Origin: Bacteroidota bacterium
Lineage (GTDB): Bacteria > Bacteroidota > Rhodothermia > Rhodothermales > UBA10348
Length of the DNA: 41,872 nt
Direction: 5' to 3'
NCBI GenBank assembly: GCA_029262835.1
Contig: JAJCYQ010000078.1
Span: 1-41,872, forward strand
Both the position numbers and the translations under genes were made by a program. Below, in pieces: positions 2,790 to 13,381 of this stretch (position 1 is the stretch's first letter; each line of letters begins with the position of its first letter). The notes beneath the pieces are model-generated. The model worked only from the letters and a program-made list of their open reading frames with translations. It was not told the origin of the DNA and searched no databases.

Positions 2790-3026
2790 TCACACGGGAT
2801 CACCTAAGCAACCCACAGTCACTTCCTCTCCGACAACACAAGGTACGTCAAAGCAACACAATGTTTCAGCACACGGCTCTTCACCTCCGTCACATCCAAG
2901 CTGCGAACATGTAAATTGGCATACCGGAGGTGCCCCTCCAGCTTCCTCGTAATACCCTCCCCATATTAGAAGTAATGTCAGTCCGAGAATAACATATACC
3001 GATATAAAGCCTTTTTTTGAATGCAT
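2790..3026 (-). CDS. Small exported cysteine-rich peptide (paralogue 2)
   Basis: The open frame reaches back to 3140, but the ATG at 3026 is preferred. It has an AAGGTGG ribosome site 5 bases upstream, puts the hydrophobic segment (FISVYVILGLTLLLIW) directly after a basic start, and gives 78 residues, nearly equal to its paralogue. The mature region carries eight cysteines, including a CC pair. It shares C-x3-G-C-x-G-x-E-x-P-C-A with the 2508-2738 product. Function is unknown; a secreted disulfide-rich peptide (signal, toxin or structural) is plausible. It diverges from the LuxR-type gene at 3206 across about 180 bases that may hold shared control sites. Confidence 0.6.
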   Translation of the reverse strand: MHSKKGFISVYVILGLTLLLIWGGYYEEAGGAPPVCQFTCSQLGCDGGEEPCAETLCCFDVPCVVGEEVTVGCLGDPV

Positions 3027-3205
3027 AGAATCCACCTTGATCGTTGGTTTTGTGATACTCGCTCGCACGATAATTTCTTTGTTCATAGTGCTCATGTCAA
3101 GGGACAAATGTCCGTTTTTGCAATTATCTTCTGCTTCCATGTCCGGTTTTGGGTCGTTTTTTCGTTTTGGTAGGTGAGAGCCCTTTCAACCTGCAACCAA
3201 CTACC

Positions 3206-3567
3206 ATGGACAATGCGTACCCCCCCCCCCCCCCGAATATGACTTTCCTGCCATTCCCGATGCATCTGAGGGGCTGGAGGCGATTTACCGGTTCCTGCGG
3301 GACCTGGACATCACGCCGCGCCGCCTTGAGGTGCTTCAGCTCATGAGCAATGGACATCTTTCTGACTCGCAGTATGCTGAGCGTCTCTTCATTACCGAGT
3401 CTGCCCTCCGCAACCACATAAGCAACATGCTGCCACTCGGGCCATTTCGAAGCCGGTACGAGTTGTTTGCCTGGGCCCGTGGATCGGCCATCATTGACGT
3501 GAATGCTACTGCCTACCGAGCCTGGCGGAAGGCACACCCGAACAACACACCGCCCGCAAATCCGTAG
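3206..3567 (+). CDS. LuxR-type HTH regulator, out of frame at a poly-C tract (candidate phase-variable)
   Basis: From about 3313 to 3500 one frame encodes a complete LuxR/GerE helix-turn-helix: ITPRRLEVLQLMSNG, then HLSDSQYAERLFITESALRN and HISNML. The frame remains open upstream through EYDFPAIPDASEGLEAIYRF to a run of 15 C at 3220-3234. An ATG at 3206 (MDNAY) leads into the run in a different frame and, with 15 C, reaches a stop at 3346. With 16 or 13 C the same ATG would read through the HTH, giving about 120 residues. A GTG at 3331 could start a shorter product but would cut into the HTH. No sensor domain is present. A sequencing error in the homopolymer is the main alternative. Confidence 0.6.
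3220..3234. repeat. Poly-C homopolymer of 15 bases
   Basis: An uninterrupted C run lies 15 codon-bases into the LuxR-type reading frame, where it encodes prolines. It is the longest homopolymer in the window and sits exactly where the frame changes. Such tracts mutate by slipped-strand mispairing and act as contingency switches in many bacteria. Confidence 0.85.
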
Positions 3568-3603: not shown

Positions 3604-4830
3604 ATGCCTATGAAACGCTTAAGGGTACGTCCATGGCAGGTGGCTGCGCTCGTGCTGCTTATGGCAGCGCTTGGAATTGGCGGCTATGTGTTCTGGCCGG
3701 CGCTTACGGGCGCATCTACAGGAAATGAACGGGACGTTCCGGACACGGAGCGGGTTGCGCAGCGCACGCGCGTGGGCGTCGTGGTGGTGGAGCCGACCGA
3801 TTTCCTGCTGTTTGCCGAGGCGACGGGTAATCTGGCGCCGTGGCGGAGCGCGGAAGTGAGCCCTGAGGCATCGGGCGTGGTCAGGGAGCGGCTCGTGGAA
3901 GAGGGAACGCGGGTTGCAGAGGGAGCGGCGCTTATCCGGCTCGATTCGCGGGATCAGGAGCTGGAACTGGAAGAAGCGCGGAGCGAGCTGCTTCGCGCGC
4001 AGATTGATTACACCGGGAAGCGGGTGGGCGCGAGCACGATATCGGCCGATTCCACAGCCATTACGCGGGCGAAGGCGCTTTTTGAACGCGCCCGGCAGCG
4101 GTACGAAGAGGGACTTTTGACGCTGGGTGAGTTTCAGGATGCCCGGCGAGCCTACGACACGGAAATGATTCGCAGCGGGGGGCGGGCCGTCGATGTCCAG
4201 TCGCTGCTCTCCGGCCTCGAACAGGCCGAGCAGCGGGTCAGGCGGGCGGAGCTGGCGCTCTCGCGCATGACCATCGCGGCGCCGTTTGGTGGGCGGATTG
4301 CGAACCTTGAGGTAGAGGAAGGGCAGCATATTTCCATGGGGACGCCGGTCCTTACGCTGCTCGACGATTCGCGCATGAAGGTGGATGTGAGCGTGCTGGA
4401 AGCGGACCTTGTGGGGCTTGGGCCGGGGGCCGATGCGCGCGTGCGCATTCCGGCGCTCGCCGACACGGTGCTGAGTGGTCGTATTTTTTCGGTCAACCCG
4501 TCCATTGATCCCGACACGGGCACGGGGCGCGTGACGGTTGAAGTCGCCAATCCGCGTGGCAAGCTGCTATCGGGGCTCTTTGCCTACGTGCAGCTCGAGG
4601 CCGGGCGCCTGTCGGACCGCATTGTGGTGCCCGCCGAAGCCGTGCTGTCGCGTCAGGGTCGCGACCTGGTCTTTACCGTCGAAGGCAGCCGCGCGCAGTG
4701 GACGTACGTCACAACCGGGCGCCGCTCCGGCGGCCTCGTTGAAATCGTGGAGCCGCTCGCGCCGGGCGACAGCGTCGCCGTGGAGGGGCATCACGCGTTG
4801 TCACACGATGCACGCGTGGAGGCCCAGTGA
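3604..4830 (+). CDS. RND efflux periplasmic adaptor (membrane fusion protein)
   Basis: About 408 residues. A basic start (MKRLRVRPW) is followed by one hydrophobic anchor at about residues 11-31. Then comes the HlyD/AcrA-type layout: a barrel-sandwich hybrid half (LAPWRSAEVSPEASGVVRE), a long alpha-hairpin, the second lipoyl half (MTIAAPFGGRIANLEVEEGQ), a beta-barrel, and a C-terminal membrane-proximal region. It should link the inner-membrane pumps encoded next to an outer-membrane channel, but no TolC-type gene is in the window. The frame opens at a GTG at 3595; the ATG at 3604 or 3610 is more natural and neither has a clear ribosome site. It overlaps the next gene by 4 bases (GTGA). Confidence 0.9.
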   Translation: MPMKRLRVRPWQVAALVLLMAALGIGGYVFWPALTGASTGNERDVPDTERVAQRTRVGVVVVEPTDFLLFAEATGNLAPWRSAEVSPEASGVVRERLVEEGTRVAEGAALIRLDSRDQELELEEARSELLRAQIDYTGKRVGASTISADSTAITRAKALFERARQRYEEGLLTLGEFQDARRAYDTEMIRSGGRAVDVQSLLSGLEQAEQRVRRAELALSRMTIAAPFGGRIANLEVEEGQHISMGTPVLTLLDDSRMKVDVSVLEADLVGLGPGADARVRIPALADTVLSGRIFSVNPSIDPDTGTGRVTVEVANPRGKLLSGLFAYVQLEAGRLSDRIVVPAEAVLSRQGRDLVFTVEGSRAQWTYVTTGRRSGGLVEIVEPLAPGDSVAVEGHHALSHDARVEAQ

Positions 4831-7800
4831 ACCCGTTCGTACACGCATGCTTCAGGCGGCCGGTCGCGGTCACCGCCTTCTTCCTGCTCGTGGGGGTTGC
4901 GGCCGTCGCCTCGTGGGTGCGCCTGCCTGTGGCTCTGTTGCCGGATTTGCGCTACCCCACGCTCATTGTCTGGACGGCCTACCCCGACGTGCCGCCCGAG
5001 CGCGTGGAGCGGGCCATCACGGAGCGCGTAGAAGAAGCCATTTCCGGGACGCAGGGCGTCGAGCGGCTCACGGCGCGGTCCATGCTCGGCGGCAGCATGA
5101 TCCGCCTTGATTTCGGGTGGAACACGAACCTTGACCTGGCGCTTCTTGAGGTGCGCGAGCAGCTTGACCGGCTCGGCGAGGGCCTCCCGGACGAGGCCGA
5201 CCGGCCCGTCGTGCTCCGGGTCGATCCGAACGACCGCCCCATCATGATCCTCGCGCTCTCCGAATCGCGCGCGAGCGGCCAGTCGGGCAACCTCGTGCGG
5301 CTCAAGACGGTCGGCAAGGAAGTCGTGGCGCGGCGCCTGGAGCAGCTTCCCGATGTGGCCCGCGTCGTGGTTACGGGGGGATACGACCGCCGCGTCGACA
5401 TTGTCCTGGATCCGGCCCGACTGGCGGCGTTCGGACTCGACATCAGCCGCATTGAGCAGGCGCTGCGGCGCGCGAACGTGGCACAGCCGGGCGGATCCAT
5501 TCGGCGGGGGCCGTTCCAATATGCGGTAGAGGTGACGGGCGAGTATGAATCGGTGGCCGATATCGCGGAGACGGTCGTGGCGCAGCAGGGAGGGCGCATG
5601 CTGCGGCTCAGGGATGTCGCCGAGGTGCGCGAGGGCGTCGATGTGCGGCGCGGACTCGTCCGCCTCGATGGCCACGAGACGCTCATGCTGCTCGTGGAAC
5701 GCCGCCCGGATGCCAACACCGTGCGCGCGGCGGACGACGTCCGCGCCGCACTCGCGGAGCTGAACGAGGCCATGCCGGACGTCCAGATGGATGTTGTGGT
5801 GGACGAGAGCCGATTCATTGAAGAAGCCATCGGGGGGGTTACGCAGGCCGTGCTGCTCGGGGGGCTGCTCGCCATCATCGTGCTCTTCGTGTTCTTGCGC
5901 CACAGGCAGGCGCTCGTGGCCGTGGCCGTTGCCGTGCCGCTCTCACTCGGCATGACGCTCGTCGCGTTCGAGGCGCTCGGCGTGACGTTCAACCTGATAT
6001 CGCTCTCGGGCCTCGCGCTCGGCGTCGGCATGCTGGTTGACAACGCCATCGTGGTGGTTGAAAACATTGCCCGGCTGCGCGAAGGCGGCATGGAAGCGCG
6101 CGAGGCGGGCATCCGGGGCACGTCCGAAGTGGCGGGCGCCATTACGGCATCGACCCTCACGACGATTGCCGTCTTCTTGCCGCTGACATTTGTTGAGGGG
6201 CTCGCCGGAAGGCTTTTCCTGGACCAGTCGCTCGCCGTCATTACATCGCTGGCATCGTCCCTCGTCGTCGGCCTGACCGCCGTGCCGCTCATTGCCTGGC
6301 GCGGCGAGCACAAGGCCGCCGGCGGCGGCGTCGACACCGGCCGCTTCATGCGCGGCTACGAGCGGGCGCTTGCGTGGTCGCTCCGGCGCCGGGGCGTGGT
6401 CGTGGCGGCCAGTGTGGTCCTTGTAGCCGTTGCCGCCGTTGTACTCGACGTGCTGCCGCGCGAAGTCGTGCCGCGCACGAACCAGGGCCGTATAAACGTG
6501 CACCTGGCGCTGCCCCCAGACGCCGACCTCCCGCTGCTCGACATGCGCGCGCAGGAGTGGAGCGCCGAACTCGCAGATCACGCCGCGTTTGACCACGTGC
6601 TCGCAGACCTTGGCGAGCGCGACGAGGCCCGGCTCCAGGTCGATCCGCGGCCGCCATATGAAGGCGACCTCTCCCTCATCCTCTCGCCCGGTGCCCGCCT
6701 CACGGACGCCCTCACCGCCGCGCGCGAAGCGCCTGCGCCCCCCGACATGAGCGTCGAGGTGACGCCCGTCCGCACGCAGCTCGAGGAGCTTCTGGCGTCA
6801 AACGAAGCGGACCTCTTCGTGGACCTGACAGCAGATACGCGAACGGAAGCGCTCGCGCCGTACGAGCGCGTACTTGAAGCGCTCGAGGCGAGCGGCGAGC
6901 TGACCAACGTGCGGCGCGCGAATGCCTTCAACGTGCCCGCGTGGAACCTGGAATTCCGGCGCGATGCCCTGGCCCGGCACGGCGTGGACCCACAGGCGGT
7001 TACGGCGCTTCTGGAGGCCGGCGCGCGGGGCGTGCATGCGACGGACCTTCGGAGCATCAACGAGGACATCCCGATTACGCTTCGGCTGACGGGAATTGGC
7101 ACGATGGATGATCTGCTCTCGCAGCGACTCGCGACGCGGAGCGGTCCGCTTCCCCTTTCGACGTTTGTCAGCGCCCGGTTCGTTGAGCTTCCGGCATCGC
7201 TCTACCGCACGAACCAGTCGCCCATTCTGCGCATTCTGGCCGACGTGGCGCCGGGCGCGGACCTGGCATCGGCAACGCGCGGGGCGGAGGCTGTGCTGGC
7301 TGCCGACGTGCCGGACGAGGTGCGCGGCATGGTGGGCGGATCGAACGAAGCATTCCAGAGCAGCCTGCGCGCCATGCTCTGGAGCCTGCTGTTTTCGGTC
7401 GTCCTGGTGTTTCTGATCCTGTCGGCGCAGTTTGAATCGCTCACGCAGCCGCTCGTCGTGCTGCTTACCGTGCCGCTTGCGGCAAGCGGCGTGGCGGCCG
7501 TGCTCGCCGCGACCGGCCAGACCATCAACCTCATGAGTCTTACGGGCAGCGTCGTGCTCGTCGGCATTGTGGTCAACGATGCCATTGTCAAGGTCGATTT
7601 CATCAACCAGCGGCGGCGGGACGGGCTCGACAAACACGCGGCCATCATGGAGGCGGGCCGCGACCGGCTGCGCCCCATTCTGATGACGACGATTACAACC
7701 GTGCTGGGCCTGTTGCCGCTCGCCCTCGGCTTCGGTGAGGGCGCCGAGCTGCGCGCCCCCATGGCCATTGCCATCGTGGGCGGCCTTCTGGCGGCTACGG

Positions 7801-7850
7801 TGCTGACGCTGATTGTAGTGCCTGTCGTGTATTCGCTGGTGGAGAAATGA
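4827..7850 (+). CDS. RND efflux pump permease, first subunit
   Basis: The 1007-residue product has the full RND layout: an N-terminal TM helix, a large periplasmic loop (YPDVPPERVERAITERVEEA), TM2-6, a second loop and TM7-12. TM4 carries LVDNAIVVVENI, containing the conserved proton-relay Asp. TM10 reads VGIVVNDAIVKVDF, with Asn-Asp where AcrB has Lys-Asn, as seen in several RND subfamilies outside Proteobacteria. It starts at a GTG inside the adaptor stop and ends by overlapping the next permease (ATGA), so the three are translated as a unit. Substrate cannot be read from the sequence; lipophilic compounds are the usual cargo of this HAE-like type. Confidence 0.93.
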   Translation: MNPFVHACFRRPVAVTAFFLLVGVAAVASWVRLPVALLPDLRYPTLIVWTAYPDVPPERVERAITERVEEAISGTQGVERLTARSMLGGSMIRLDFGWNTNLDLALLEVREQLDRLGEGLPDEADRPVVLRVDPNDRPIMILALSESRASGQSGNLVRLKTVGKEVVARRLEQLPDVARVVVTGGYDRRVDIVLDPARLAAFGLDISRIEQALRRANVAQPGGSIRRGPFQYAVEVTGEYESVADIAETVVAQQGGRMLRLRDVAEVREGVDVRRGLVRLDGHETLMLLVERRPDANTVRAADDVRAALAELNEAMPDVQMDVVVDESRFIEEAIGGVTQAVLLGGLLAIIVLFVFLRHRQALVAVAVAVPLSLGMTLVAFEALGVTFNLISLSGLALGVGMLVDNAIVVVENIARLREGGMEAREAGIRGTSEVAGAITASTLTTIAVFLPLTFVEGLAGRLFLDQSLAVITSLASSLVVGLTAVPLIAWRGEHKAAGGGVDTGRFMRGYERALAWSLRRRGVVVAASVVLVAVAAVVLDVLPREVVPRTNQGRINVHLALPPDADLPLLDMRAQEWSAELADHAAFDHVLADLGERDEARLQVDPRPPYEGDLSLILSPGARLTDALTAAREAPAPPDMSVEVTPVRTQLEELLASNEADLFVDLTADTRTEALAPYERVLEALEASGELTNVRRANAFNVPAWNLEFRRDALARHGVDPQAVTALLEAGARGVHATDLRSINEDIPITLRLTGIGTMDDLLSQRLATRSGPLPLSTFVSARFVELPASLYRTNQSPILRILADVAPGADLASATRGAEAVLAADVPDEVRGMVGGSNEAFQSSLRAMLWSLLFSVVLVFLILSAQFESLTQPLVVLLTVPLAASGVAAVLAATGQTINLMSLTGSVVLVGIVVNDAIVKVDFINQRRRDGLDKHAAIMEAGRDRLRPILMTTITTVLGLLPLALGFGEGAELRAPMAIAIVGGLLAATVLTLIVVPVVYSLVEK

Positions 7851-10800
7851 GCGCCCCCGACCATACCCACTTCGCCTGGTCCGAACGCCTTATTCGGCGG
7901 CCCATCGGGGTCTTGGCGTGGTCGGCGGCTATTCTGCTGGCGGGCATCTGGTCGGCCTTCCAGGTGCCGCTCGAGTGGGTGCCGCAGGTCGAACTGCCGG
8001 TCGTGAGGGTGAGTGCGAACTGGGCCGGCGCATCTCCCCGAGCCATGGAACGCTACGTGACAGCGCCCATTGAGCGGGCCGTGCAGCGCGTGCCGGGGAC
8101 GGAGAGTGTCGAAAGCCTGTCGGACGAGGGGCGCTCGACGATTACGCTGCACGTCTCGGACAAGGTCGATCTCGGACTCTACACGGCGCAGCTTGGCGAG
8201 CAGCTGACCATGCTGCGGGGCACACTGCCCGACCGCGTGTGGCCGCGGATTACGAAAGAGGTGCCCGAGGCGTTGCGGGATGAACAGGGGTTCATGAGCA
8301 TTCAACTCATTGCGCCGCTTGCGCTTGACGAGGTGCGGCGCGTCGCCGAGCGGACCGTCCGGCCGGCGCTCCAGAGCATTCCAGGGGTCGGCGACATCGA
8401 GGTGCTGGGCGGCACGGAGCGCGAGTTGCGCGTAACGCTCGACCCGAACCGTCTTGAAGCGCTCGGCGTGGGGGCGGGCGAGGTTTCGGTCCGCGTGCGT
8501 GAACTCCTGGTCGATGACGCGTACGGGCGGCTCGAGGGCGGCGGGCGGAGCGTACTGCTCATGCGAACGTCCGAAGACCGCGTGGAGCGCTTCCGCAGCC
8601 TGGTGCTCAGGCGCTCTGGCCGCGCCACGGTGCGGCTCTCCGACGTCGCGACCATCCACATGGAACCGGCGCCAGTGCGCTCCATAAGCCGGATTGACGG
8701 GCAGCCGGTCGTAACGCTGCGGGTGGACCGCGCGCGCGGCAGCCACCTGATCGAGGTGGCGGAGAACATCCACCAGCGACTGGCCGAACTCACAGCGGCG
8801 CTCCCGACCGGCGCGCGCCTCATTGTGGCCGATGACCGCAGCGAAAGCGTGCGCGAGCAGATGGACGATGTCACGCGGCGCGGCGGCGCGGGGCTCCTGC
8901 TCGTCGTGCTCGTACTGCTTGCCATGCTGCGCAGCGTGCGCGCAACAGCCGTCGTCCTCTTCTCGGTGGGCGTATCGCTCGCCATCGCCGTCATTCTGCT
9001 GCAGCCGCTTGGCCTCACGCTGAACATGCTGACGGTCGCAGGCCTCGTACTCGTCTTCGGGCTGCTCGTGGACAACTCGGTGGTCGTCGTCGAGCAACTG
9101 CTCATGCGACGGGGGGATTTTGCTGTGGGAGATGCGCTCGCCGCGGTCTGGCTGCCGCTCGTGGGTGGCACGCTGAGCACGATGGCTGTGATGCTCCCCC
9201 TTGTCTACCTGAGCGGGGACCTGCGCACGCTCTTTCTGCCCTTTGGCATTCTGGTCGCGCTTACGCTCGGCGCGAGCCTTCTGACGACGGCGCTCGTCGT
9301 GCCGGTGACGGTGCATTTCCTGCCGGTCCACGCGCCGCCGGGGCGCGCCGGGCGGCGCCTGCGCACGTGGATTTCGGCCCCCTACCGGTGGGCGGGGCGG
9401 TTTCCGCGCGTGACCGTGGCGGCGATGGTGCTGCTTCTCGGCCTGCCCGTCTGGCTCCTTCCCGAGCGGATGGTGGAGGAGGATGCAGGCCGGGCGTTGG
9501 CCGCCAATCAGGAAGGCGATGGGGCCGTCTCCCCGCGCGCCCGCCTCGCGAAACTCTATAACGCGGCCTTCGATTACAGCGCCGTCCGGGACGTGCGCGA
9601 ATGGACCGATCCCCTGCTCGGCGGCGCGCTCCGCGTTTTCCGGCGCGATGTCAATTTCGGGAGCGGCTGGTCCTGGACGCCGCGGCCCGAGGTATACGTC
9701 AACATGAGCTTTCCCCCAGGTCATCCGATTGCCCGGGCCGATTCGCTCATGAGTCAGTTCGAGCGCCAGGCGCTGGCCTCCCCATCGGTCGACCGGATCA
9801 TCCTCAATATCAACGAGGAGAATGCCAGCATGCGGTTGCAGTTCAGCGAGGAGGCGCTCCGAACCGCCGAGCCGTACATGCTGCGCGAGCGGCTCATTGG
9901 CACGGCCGTGAACATCGGCGGGCTGCGCATCAGCGTGGGCGGGCTCGTGCAGGATGGCTATTACAGTGGGGTCGGTGGCGGTATTTCGGGCGTGCGCCTC
10001 GAAGCCCGGGGTCCGAACTACGAGGATCTGGACCGCCTGGCGCGGCAGTTTGCGCGGCATCTGGAAGGTCGCAGCCGCCGCGTGGCCGGAGTCGATGTGA
10101 ACGCGGATCGGTTTGGTCGATTCGAAGCGGCGCGGCAGGTCATCCGCTTCGAGTGGACTCCCGAATCGGAAGAGCGATCGGGGCTGAACACGCAGATGGT
10201 CGCGGCGGCGCTCGGCCCCGTTTTCCGCACGCGCTTTCCAATGGCATGGGCGGACCTTGAGGAGCAGGCCCAGGTCCCCGTGCGGGTCATTGTCGAGGGC
10301 GCAGAAAATGCCGACGTGGCCGATCTCATGGTGCAGCCGCTCGCCGTTTCCGATTCAGCGGCGCTCGTGCTCGGCGACTTTGCCAACTATTCCATTGAAA
10401 CCCGGCCCTCTGGCGTGCGCCGCATTGACCAGCGCTACCGTCGCTTCATATCGGTCGATTTCCGAGGCCCGTCCCGCATGGCGAACGACTTCGTGGAGCG
10501 GGAACTGGCTGCCTTCGCCGTGCCGGTCGGATACACGCTCGAGCAGTCCTCGTTTTCATTCTTCACGGACGATGTCAAGGAGTCCTTCGGCTGGCTCATG
10601 TTGGCGACCATCCTGCTCGTTTTCATTGTGACAGCGGCGGTGTTTGAGAGCTGGCGGCTTCCCGTCGTTGTTATTCTGTCGGTACCGCTCTCGGCGGTCG
10701 GGGTCACGTGGGGCTTCGTGTGGACGGGCGCGAGCTTTGCCGAAGGCGCGTTCATCGGCGCCGTCCTCATGGTGGGTATCGCGGTGAACGATTCCATCCT

Positions 10801-11089
10801 GCTCGTGGACCGCTACCGGCAGCACCGCGCGCGCCGCCCGCACGGACGGCCGAACGTGCTCGTGCGTCTGGCCGTACGCGAGCGGCTGCGCCCCATGATT
10901 ACGACGACGCTTACATCCATTGTAGCCATGATGCCCATGCTCATCTACGCCGACAACGCGGACTTCTGGACGGGGCTCGCAGTAACGGTCACAGGCGGAC
11001 TCAGCTCCAGTACGCTGCTCGCCCCCATCATGGCCGTGGCGGTCGTCAGCCTCCGCAGGTCGCCGCATCCATTAAAAACTACGTCATGA
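7847..11089 (+). CDS. RND efflux pump permease, second subunit
   Basis: The 1080-residue product is a second complete RND permease, clearly different from the first. TM4 contains GLLVDNSVVVVEQLLM and TM10 contains VGIAVNDSILLVDRYR. A long periplasmic domain begins ANWAGASPRAMERYVTAPIE. Two different permeases behind one adaptor recalls MdtABC, where two permeases form a mixed trimer; that this pair does so is inference. It overlaps the preceding gene by 4 bases and the following propeller gene by 4 bases. Confidence 0.92.
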   Translation: MSAPDHTHFAWSERLIRRPIGVLAWSAAILLAGIWSAFQVPLEWVPQVELPVVRVSANWAGASPRAMERYVTAPIERAVQRVPGTESVESLSDEGRSTITLHVSDKVDLGLYTAQLGEQLTMLRGTLPDRVWPRITKEVPEALRDEQGFMSIQLIAPLALDEVRRVAERTVRPALQSIPGVGDIEVLGGTERELRVTLDPNRLEALGVGAGEVSVRVRELLVDDAYGRLEGGGRSVLLMRTSEDRVERFRSLVLRRSGRATVRLSDVATIHMEPAPVRSISRIDGQPVVTLRVDRARGSHLIEVAENIHQRLAELTAALPTGARLIVADDRSESVREQMDDVTRRGGAGLLLVVLVLLAMLRSVRATAVVLFSVGVSLAIAVILLQPLGLTLNMLTVAGLVLVFGLLVDNSVVVVEQLLMRRGDFAVGDALAAVWLPLVGGTLSTMAVMLPLVYLSGDLRTLFLPFGILVALTLGASLLTTALVVPVTVHFLPVHAPPGRAGRRLRTWISAPYRWAGRFPRVTVAAMVLLLGLPVWLLPERMVEEDAGRALAANQEGDGAVSPRARLAKLYNAAFDYSAVRDVREWTDPLLGGALRVFRRDVNFGSGWSWTPRPEVYVNMSFPPGHPIARADSLMSQFERQALASPSVDRIILNINEENASMRLQFSEEALRTAEPYMLRERLIGTAVNIGGLRISVGGLVQDGYYSGVGGGISGVRLEARGPNYEDLDRLARQFARHLEGRSRRVAGVDVNADRFGRFEAARQVIRFEWTPESEERSGLNTQMVAAALGPVFRTRFPMAWADLEEQAQVPVRVIVEGAENADVADLMVQPLAVSDSAALVLGDFANYSIETRPSGVRRIDQRYRRFISVDFRGPSRMANDFVERELAAFAVPVGYTLEQSSFSFFTDDVKESFGWLMLATILLVFIVTAAVFESWRLPVVVILSVPLSAVGVTWGFVWTGASFAEGAFIGAVLMVGIAVNDSILLVDRYRQHRARRPHGRPNVLVRLAVRERLRPMITTTLTSIVAMMPMLIYADNADFWTGLAVTVTGGLSSSTLLAPIMAVAVVSLRRSPHPLKTTS

Positions 11090-12138
11090 GCTTCACTCTG
11101 CGCACGACCATGCTCCTTTTTCTCGCTGGCCTGCTGCCAGCTGGCGTTTGTCAGTCAGGCGCTGCCGCCCAGTCGCTTGAACTCGAGGGGACGTTCGCAG
11201 AGGAAATTCTCTGGACACGCCCCGAGCACGTCTTGACCGACGCAGATGGATCTATTTACATCTCCGATCCGCGCCAGCAGGTCGTTCACCGTTTTTCGGC
11301 CGACTGGGAGCACATGGGGACGTTCGGCGCGAAGGGATCGGGGCCCGGCGAATTCCAGTCCATCAACGACATGGCATGGTCACCCGACGGAGAACTCGTA
11401 ATTCTCGACGGCCGGGCGCGCAGGTTTTCCATCTGGTCAACCGATGGAGAGTACCTGCGCCAGCAGGCATTCACAGATGGTGTCATGGTTGCGGACATGG
11501 CGGCAATCAGTGGCGGGTACGCCATGGCCTACGCCAACTCGACGATGTCGACAGACGATATGCTCATCCTGCACGAAATGGATGCTTCCGGCGCCTTCAG
11601 GCAGCGCTTTCCACAGCCGAAGGATGCCGCAGTCAACGCGTACAACGTCTTGATGGCAGTGTCCATGCCGGGGCGTGTGGCCCGCCTCGGTGATGGCTAC
11701 GCGTGGGCACCGGGCGTCTATGAAGGGTGGATCGGGCGCGTGACAGCTGGCGGGACGTTCGAGCGCGTCCAAGGAGCGTCTGTCGAGAAGCCGGTTATCC
11801 GGGAGGTGCCCTCGCGAGCCGAAGGAAACACGGAGGTCATGAATCCGGGAGAAACGACGTCCACCTACCTGCGCATTGACGCGCTCACCGGGGGACTCTT
11901 CTCGACGCCGGGTGGCGGACTCCTGCTTGCAATTCGACACTATTCACCGGCTCATAACAGCATAAGCCCACCGTACAGGATGGTACTGATGGATGCGGAC
12001 CTGGCGATTGCAGCCACGTGGATGGTATCATCGGACGACCATCTGGGCCTTCCGCTGCACATCGACGCTCGCGGGATGCTCTACTCCGCCCGCTTCGATC
12101 CCGAACCTCATATCGCGGTGTGGCGCATTGCCCGCTGA
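11086..12138 (+). CDS. Exported six-bladed beta-propeller protein
   Basis: The ATG at 11086 overlaps the permease stop (ATGA) and gives 350 residues. The N-terminus MSFTLRTTMLLFLAGLLPAG is a signal sequence, with a likely cleavage near AAA-QS. The mature part is a propeller with NHL/TolB-like blades (HVLTDADGSIYISDPRQQ), the GSGPGEF turn and strands such as GELVILDGRARRFSIW. It belongs to the same broad family as the three other propellers in this window. Its 4-base overlap with the RND pump genes places it in that operon. A role with the pump, such as ligand capture or assembly in the periplasm, is inferred only from linkage. Confidence 0.8.
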   Translation: MSFTLRTTMLLFLAGLLPAGVCQSGAAAQSLELEGTFAEEILWTRPEHVLTDADGSIYISDPRQQVVHRFSADWEHMGTFGAKGSGPGEFQSINDMAWSPDGELVILDGRARRFSIWSTDGEYLRQQAFTDGVMVADMAAISGGYAMAYANSTMSTDDMLILHEMDASGAFRQRFPQPKDAAVNAYNVLMAVSMPGRVARLGDGYAWAPGVYEGWIGRVTAGGTFERVQGASVEKPVIREVPSRAEGNTEVMNPGETTSTYLRIDALTGGLFSTPGGGLLLAIRHYSPAHNSISPPYRMVLMDADLAIAATWMVSSDDHLGLPLHIDARGMLYSARFDPEPHIAVWRIAR

Positions 12139-12165
12139 ACCACACGGAATATCGTTGAGATTTGG

Positions 12166-13308
12166 TCACTCGCTCCGTTCGACAGCAACCCGCACCCGCG
12201 CCACATGAGGGTACGGACTGGGGCGGACCATGTAGAGATCGCCGGGCGCAGGCTGCGCGCGGACCGTGCCAAAGTCGAGCGCATCGAGGTCCTCGTTCTC
12301 GATCGAAAAGAGCAGGCGCCAGTCGGCATCATAGACGTCCAGCGTCGTGTGGTTGATGGGGTCGGGCGGATTCTCCCCGCTGAAAGAGGCCGTCGCGTGT
12401 GCGTCTGGATCAGGAATGTTCGTCGGCCAGCGGGCGCTTATCAGATGATATCCACCTGGCAGGGCAGCGGGCATGGACACGCTGCTGTAGAATCGGACGC
12501 CCAGCAGGTTATCTCCAGATACGGCAAACCCGTGGCGCGTAAAGTCGGACACGCTGCGACGAATAACACGAAGTGTGTCCCCATTTGACGCATGAATGCT
12601 GAGTTCATAGAAGTCTGATCGCCGTAGTGCAATTCGTCCATCAATGACTGCGCCTGACCCACCGATCAACAGACCACCTGGCGGCGGATCGTCCACTGTC
12701 GGAACCACCTTGAATGAATCTGTCACGGCCCAGTCCGTTGTTCGTAACAAACGAACATCGGTACCCGCGGGATTGGTAGAACCTGAAAAAACGGCGGTGG
12801 TATCGTTCAAGAAACCAGTCAGGCTTAAGAAGCCCTGCATTCCGCGTACATCGCGAGGGATTGTGCGAACAAATGTCCCCGTCAGAGAGAAGAGATCCAA
12901 CCGTCTTCCACCCTGATTCGCAACCAGGAGTAGACCATCAGGGGTCATGAACATGCTTCGTGCCCGACTGAACTCGCCCGGGCCTTCGCCCTCGCGGCCC
13001 GATTCCCAGCGGAAGTCGCCCTCGGCGGTGAACGAAACAAGCCGGTTGCGGTCCAGGATATAGACGTTACCGTCGGAATCGACCTCGACACTTCGAATCT
13101 GGGACAGCATTTCGCGCTCAGGTTCTTCCTCGGCGCCAAACTGGACGAGTTCCTCCATAGCAAGGCGGTAGGCGCCATCCGTCTGGTGGGGACCGTGGAA
13201 TGGATTCTCGACGATCAGTTCGGTGCCCGGAGCGTCGGTCGCGGGCGCGCCACCGCAGGCGGCGAGCAAAAAACCGCACATGGCGGCAAGCAGGATGTGT
13301 CTCGTCAC
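12166..13308 (-). CDS. Six-bladed beta-propeller lipoprotein (tandem paralogue A)
   Basis: The GTG at 13308 is chosen because GGAGG lies 6 bases upstream (13315-13319). The frame extends back to 13341 without such support. The product is about 380 residues, starts VTRHILLAAMCGFLLAACGG and has a clear lipobox (LAAC), so it is a lipoprotein. The sequence LIVENPFHGPHQTDGAYRL, a GEGPGEF turn, and blades like DSDGNVYILDRNRLVSFT mark a six-bladed propeller. It is a close paralogue of the gene at 14394-15560; the two align throughout, including the PTNIPDPDAHA and DPINHTTLDVYD segments. It converges with the propeller ending at 12138, leaving 27 bases and no visible terminator. Confidence 0.8.
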   Translation of the reverse strand: MTRHILLAAMCGFLLAACGGAPATDAPGTELIVENPFHGPHQTDGAYRLAMEELVQFGAEEEPEREMLSQIRSVEVDSDGNVYILDRNRLVSFTAEGDFRWESGREGEGPGEFSRARSMFMTPDGLLLVANQGGRRLDLFSLTGTFVRTIPRDVRGMQGFLSLTGFLNDTTAVFSGSTNPAGTDVRLLRTTDWAVTDSFKVVPTVDDPPPGGLLIGGSGAVIDGRIALRRSDFYELSIHASNGDTLRVIRRSVSDFTRHGFAVSGDNLLGVRFYSSVSMPAALPGGYHLISARWPTNIPDPDAHATASFSGENPPDPINHTTLDVYDADWRLLFSIENEDLDALDFGTVRAQPAPGDLYMVRPSPYPHVARVRVAVERSE

Positions 13309-13381
13309 GAGGGGCCTCCATTTTTTACAAACGTACAACATTTTACGCGGAACATCCCATCATAAGCGGGTTACGACAGGC

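Follow-up and report, generated by a model that had tools for sequence, protein, structure and literature searches.

Poly-C tracts behind overlapping start codons suggest phase variation in a multicopy family of solo HTH regulators divergent from exported-protein genes

The window analysed here, a stretch of 41,872 nucleotides, is contig C78 in the draft assembly (3.45 Mb) of the genome G000, and it carries at positions 3206-3567 two overlapping start codons in different frames, a homopolymer of 15 C and a LuxR/NarL-type HTH frame. The first start codon (ATG1, 3206-3208, + strand) belongs to a conserved CCATGGACnATGnGTAC block, and both it and the second (ATG2, 3213-3215, +) lie 5' of the C run (3220-3234, +), a putative contingency tract within the 5' coding region whose length falls in the unstable range of simple-sequence contingency loci. 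As the original prediction had stated, the frame of ATG1 enters the run and stops at 3346 (TGA 3344-3346, for a product of 46 aa), and the downstream HTH frame (3235-3567, +, ending at TAG 3565-3567) is open up to the run and indeed beyond it, back to TGA 3175-3177. A separate start for this frame 5' of the tract was rejected, as no ATG, GTG or TTG is present between that in-frame stop and the tract. With 15 C, as sequenced, the HTH is out of frame with both ATGs and is reached by neither. Computation of the frames across tract lengths indicates that gain or loss of C units toggles the open reading frame: ATG1 reaches the HTH with 13 or 16 C (joined product of 119 or 120 aa), which agrees with the lengths and the size of about 120 aa first proposed, and ATG2 reaches it with 14 or 17 C (117 or 118 aa), so that the initial list of productive lengths was right but incomplete. 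If both ATGs work, the present phase is the only OFF phase among the three.

The joined protein consists of a Pro stretch followed by the HTH, and neither an N-terminal receiver domain nor an autoinducer-binding domain of quorum-sensing LuxR proteins is present in its approximately 120 aa. The window copy matches the GerE profile (PF00196) with E=1.1e-4 and 22.2 bits, against a Pfam cut-off of 23.5, and five of the seven family members exceed this cut-off, most relatives having E-values of 1e-6 to 1e-5. An AF2 model (seven sequences) has a mean pLDDT of 82.4 and six helices including the four-helix GerE fold; its best PDB match is the DNA-binding domain of NarL (rmsd of 1.4 over 60 columns), with a Foldseek E-value of only 7e-3, such values being weak for so small a fold. 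The regulator is thus a solo HTH without sensor, receiver or ligand domain, and for this reason its activity is probably set by the amount of protein, which would fit control by a frame switch.

Several putative targets are encoded on the - strand, divergent from the HTH gene. The nearest is a small Cys-rich exported peptide gene (2790-3026), an ORF with an N-terminal hydrophobic segment, followed by a second Cys-rich exported peptide gene identified by ORF analysis (2508-2738); neither has a match in Pfam or NCBIfam. Next come genes for an NHL/6-bladed-propeller-like exported protein (1071-2174; weak NHL match with E=0.024, and scyF_NHL with E=5.5e-8, below cut-off) and for a thioredoxin-like exported protein (556-1074; weak Thioredoxin_2 match, E=0.025). 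Export was predicted throughout from N-terminal hydrophobic segments or lipoboxes judged by eye. On the + strand, the HTH stop is followed after 39 nt by genes for an HlyD-type adaptor and for two RND pump proteins (3607-11089; HlyD_D23 and ACR_tran matches), which from their position may be co-transcribed with the HTH gene; with this operon so close on the same strand, the pump genes too are candidate targets of the regulator. Past the RND genes, the window holds more 6-bladed-propeller-like (DUF5128) and exported lipoprotein genes (10708-13341).

The HTH gene is found in five copies in G000, the window copy and four paralogs (C21, C101a, C101b and C2, the last on the - strand), and two of the three sister species of the genus have an ortholog (G001:C25 and G003:C51). 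The third sister species, G002, has the pump adaptor and no HTH gene of the poly-C family. The genes 3' of the HTH differ among paralogs; the RND pump operon occupies this place in the window, G003 and G001, with a gap of 39-41 nt between HTH stop and adaptor. All five G000 copies are divergent from exported-protein genes, which encode a Cys-rich peptide and 6-bladed-propeller lipoproteins at C2, an exported protein containing Peptidase_S74 at C21 and, twice, DUF6973 lipoproteins at C101. In most of these exported cassettes the third-position GC is 0.24-0.54, against about 0.75-0.85 in core genes. Among the 114 genomes of the order that were searched, one per species, the start-plus-tract block was detected in G000 and G001 and is absent from the other 112, G003 being scored as absent with a contig that starts inside the run. 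The promoter half of this G003 ortholog was looked for and not found. The start-plus-tract pattern is missing from viral contigs, and a viral relative was likewise not found. The closest tract-free relatives examined in detail are REC-HTH response regulators from another genus of the same family. The multicopy double-start regulators apparently form a family limited to one genus.

The region 5' of the start codons is conserved as a module. A palindrome, GGACAAATGTCC, lies between the divergent genes at 3102-3113 (no strand assigned) and constitutes a putative operator: each of the six readable family loci has one at a conserved position, centred 97.5-102.5 bp 5' of ATG1, and such a palindrome has a chance of about 0.02 per locus of occurring in the 7-bp zone. 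The arms vary by locus and change together, so that complementarity is kept: GGACA/TGTCC in the window, TAGGCA/TGCCTA in G001, TAGTCA/TGACTA in C21, C101a and C101b, and GTCAA/TTGAC in C2. As the C101 and C21 copies are closely related, this conservation represents about four independent cases instead of six. The same half-site is present in copies whose recognition helices are almost identical, an association confounded by their relatedness, and this would match the prediction for a dimeric NarL-like binder. Between palindrome and tract, a promoter-like box (TGTCCG..TT........TTTTnCGTnTG; 3140-3168, +) starts 31.5-32.5 bp past the centre of the palindrome in all six readable loci, and the CCATGGACnATGnGTAC start block aligns across the same six 5' regions before the run, C101a having ACG in place of the first ATG. 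ATG2 is kept 7 nt past the ATG1 position in six of six loci. With 0-1 mismatch allowed, the genome contains 10 sites of the box, 5 of which precede members of the HTH family. The five other TGTCCG..TTTTACGTATG boxes of G000 (C2:34718-, C13:63698+, C2:18429-, C4:47617+ and C31:70729-) lie away from the family, one preceding a small lipoprotein with GADGHN repeats and one a receiver-like protein, and could mark either a regulon or a class of sigma-factor promoters. The box was rejected as proof of a regulon, a sigma-factor promoter being equally possible.

The tract occurs at equivalent codons in the six readable copies (five in G000 and one in G001), with lengths from 9 to 15 C, the contig of the G003 ortholog beginning inside the run so that its tract length is not readable. 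As sequenced, C101b (9 C) is ON, directly in frame, and the window (15 C), C21 (12 C), C101a (10 C), C2 (15 C) and G001:C25 (9 C) are OFF; any OFF copy with both ATGs is switched ON by the gain or loss of a single C. Five of the six readable copies thus have a phase read by no available ATG (p of about 0.018 under random phases), calls made on draft assemblies and dependent on run lengths which short reads can miscount. C101 (L073 6131-12057) contains a tandem duplication of the HTH and DUF6973-lipoprotein module, the two HTH genes of which differ in frame state, one being OFF at 10 C and the other ON at 9 C.

One explanation for a regulator so often sequenced in an unread phase would be expression by slippage, in which slips of RNA polymerase (or of the ribosome) on the C run always leave a fraction of the messages in frame, giving a leaky, low level of regulator with no heritable switch. 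Long homopolymers provoke transcript slippage, and the HTH frame is conserved even though the unread phase is that of five copies out of six; C101b, however, is directly in frame and needs no slippage, and slippage of a programmed kind would tend to keep the length fixed, whereas the observed lengths extend from 9 to 15 C. We consider this explanation unlikely, and it is compatible with a phase-variation switch, as both can be true.

The length of the run itself stands well apart from the surrounding sequence. It is the sole run of at least 9 identical bases in the window, where overlapping C9 matches number 7 against 0.54 expected, a value attained in none of 100 shuffles. The genome contains 57 C runs of at least 9, of which about 42 were discounted as C/G-rich junk near contig ends and 15 are internal. 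A genome-wide excess of C runs was considered and rejected, because the 15 internal runs do not exceed the approximately 30 (C/G) expected per genome under a first-order Markov model derived from the window. The same model gives 0.5 runs of at least 12 and about 0.009 of at least 15. Five of the 15 internal runs fall in about 2 kb of HTH-family DNA (p of about 2.5e-13), the three internal C runs of at least 12 in the genome all belong to the family, and so do both of the internal C/G runs of at least 15. Only the length and the clustering of the C runs in the HTH family stand out genome-wide. At the level of the letters, the analysis of G000 covered the regions surrounding the tracts and the loci of the family.

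Many contigs of G000 (e.g. L081, L092, L106 and L117) have ends of C/G-rich junk in which long runs of C or G occur; this artefact of sequencing or assembly raises the counts of homopolymers. Since the library evidently had trouble with such runs, the exact count of the 15-C run may be off by 1-2. Taken further, this difficulty would suggest that the true tract is constant and in frame and that the gene is always ON, the recorded lengths being sequencing or assembly errors. That is less probable still: in two independent assemblies (G000 and G001), copies with runs of as few as 9-10 C are likewise out of frame or of other lengths, errors at five loci would be needed for a constant ON length, and 9-15 C following a start codon are slippery by nature even if single counts are wrong.

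The HTH frame appears to have been maintained irrespective of its present phase. It is free of stops in all seven copies, and Nei-Gojobori dN/dS values, used only for pairs with dS <1 as more distant pairs were saturated and left out, are 0.23 for the window and G003, 0.19 for C21 and C101a, 0.20 for C101a and C101b, and 0.33 for C21 and C101b. These low values hold though the sequenced tracts put the window copy, C21 and C101a out of frame, and they indicate purifying selection on the HTH frame even between out-of-frame copies, which argues against simple decay. Pseudogenes broken by frameshift, as might be supposed from copies that are short, few and mostly out of frame, are very improbable and largely refuted by the absence of stops in the HTH frame of all seven copies, by dN/dS of about 0.2 between out-of-frame copies and by the conserved 5' regulatory block of the six readable copies in two species.

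We therefore propose, as the probable explanation, that the solo HTH regulators, which probably control the divergent exported cassettes, undergo slipped-strand phase variation. This accounts for the run and its varying length, for the mixture of frame states and for the maintenance of the HTH frame, and two of the three phases would be productive through the double start if both ATGs act. Slipped-strand mispairing at replication would alter the number of C after the start codon(s) and so shift the HTH frame into or out of register, 15 C being OFF and 13/16 C (from ATG1) or 14/17 C (from ATG2) being ON, perhaps at two expression levels. In the ON state, the protein of about 117-120 aa would bind as a dimer to the palindrome between its own gene and the divergent cassette and would change the expression of this exported cassette, possibly of its own promoter too and, at the window locus, perhaps of the RND pump genes that follow the HTH. 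With five copies switching independently, many combinations of exported-protein expression could coexist in a population. The tract, the frames, the family, its conservation and selection, the position of the palindrome and the gene layout are observed in the sequences; slippage in living populations, DNA binding, the targets and the direction of regulation are what we infer. Counting against phase variation is the preponderance of the unread phase in five of six copies, which something may favour or mis-call; such an excess could result from selection for OFF, from leakage by slippage of transcripts or from miscalled lengths. The original prediction had likewise placed phase variation at a locus facing an island of exported peptides. 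The island has its counterpart at five of five G000 copies in the form of predicted exported genes, and phase variation is well supported by paralog and ortholog tracts at a shared position, with differing lengths and frame states, and by the selected HTH frame; the list of ON lengths had to be extended, the regulator specified as a solo HTH and the RND pump operon considered as a further possible target. More tentatively, it is possible that the dispersed, independently switching solo HTH genes, each with its own exported cassette and its own version of the palindromic operator, act together in an environmental lineage as a combinatorial diversifier of surface and secretome, and that the pair of overlapping starts makes a three-state switch with two ON forms or levels and one OFF.

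Homopolymer phase variation is best known from host-adapted pathogens, mostly in the surface genes themselves. The poly-G/C phase-variable surface genes of Neisseria, Campylobacter and Helicobacter have homopolymeric contingency tracts as here, usually inside the surface gene, whereas in the present family the tract is mainly in a regulator beside exported genes. In the regulatory gene bvgS of Bordetella pertussis, a change in length of a C tract in the coding region causes a frameshift and switches a regulon (PMC1891110, PMC7241687). The present genes resemble it in using a coding-region C tract of a regulatory gene as a frame switch, but bvgS is a large, single-copy sensor kinase with C6/C7, unlike a tiny solo HTH in five copies with 9-15 C beside the start codon and its own divergent cassette each. 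The Haemophilus influenzae gene lic2A reportedly has starts in different frames 5' of its repeat tract and more than one productive phase, an arrangement of several start codons like that described here. Several functional initiation codons are named in the title of Dixon et al. 2007, as cited in PMC6479036. The lic2A case concerns tetranucleotide repeats in LOS enzyme genes, in contrast to a C run in a regulator. Finally, HTH sequence and predicted fold are like those of NarL/FixJ (GerE, PF00196) DNA-binding domains, from which the family differs by lacking a receiver or ligand domain, by a Pro-coding homopolymer before the HTH and by extra C-terminal helices. In the literature searched we found no description of phase-variable HTH families and nothing that paired Rhodothermales with phase variation. 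The type of switch is known; what differs appears to be the multicopy minimal-HTH family, the position of two ATGs at the start and the pairing with exported cassettes. The C-run switch would here act on multicopy minimal DNA-binding proteins coupled to exported-protein cassettes. If this is true, the family offers a compact system in which to study stochastic control of secreted proteins, and C-run contingency loci occur in environmental genomes, where they can be mis-annotated as broken genes.

A second type of poly-C gene is present in G000. On C94 (L118 571-1301), a lipoprotein gene has an 11-C run (659-669) directly after the lipobox region and is out of frame at 11 C and open at 12 C; the part 3' of the run has no Pfam match. 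On C102 (L123 679-689), another lipoprotein gene has an 11-G run in its 5' leader, and GGGACGAATTTTTACCTTGC upstream of this gene resembles the sequence upstream of the C94 lipoprotein.
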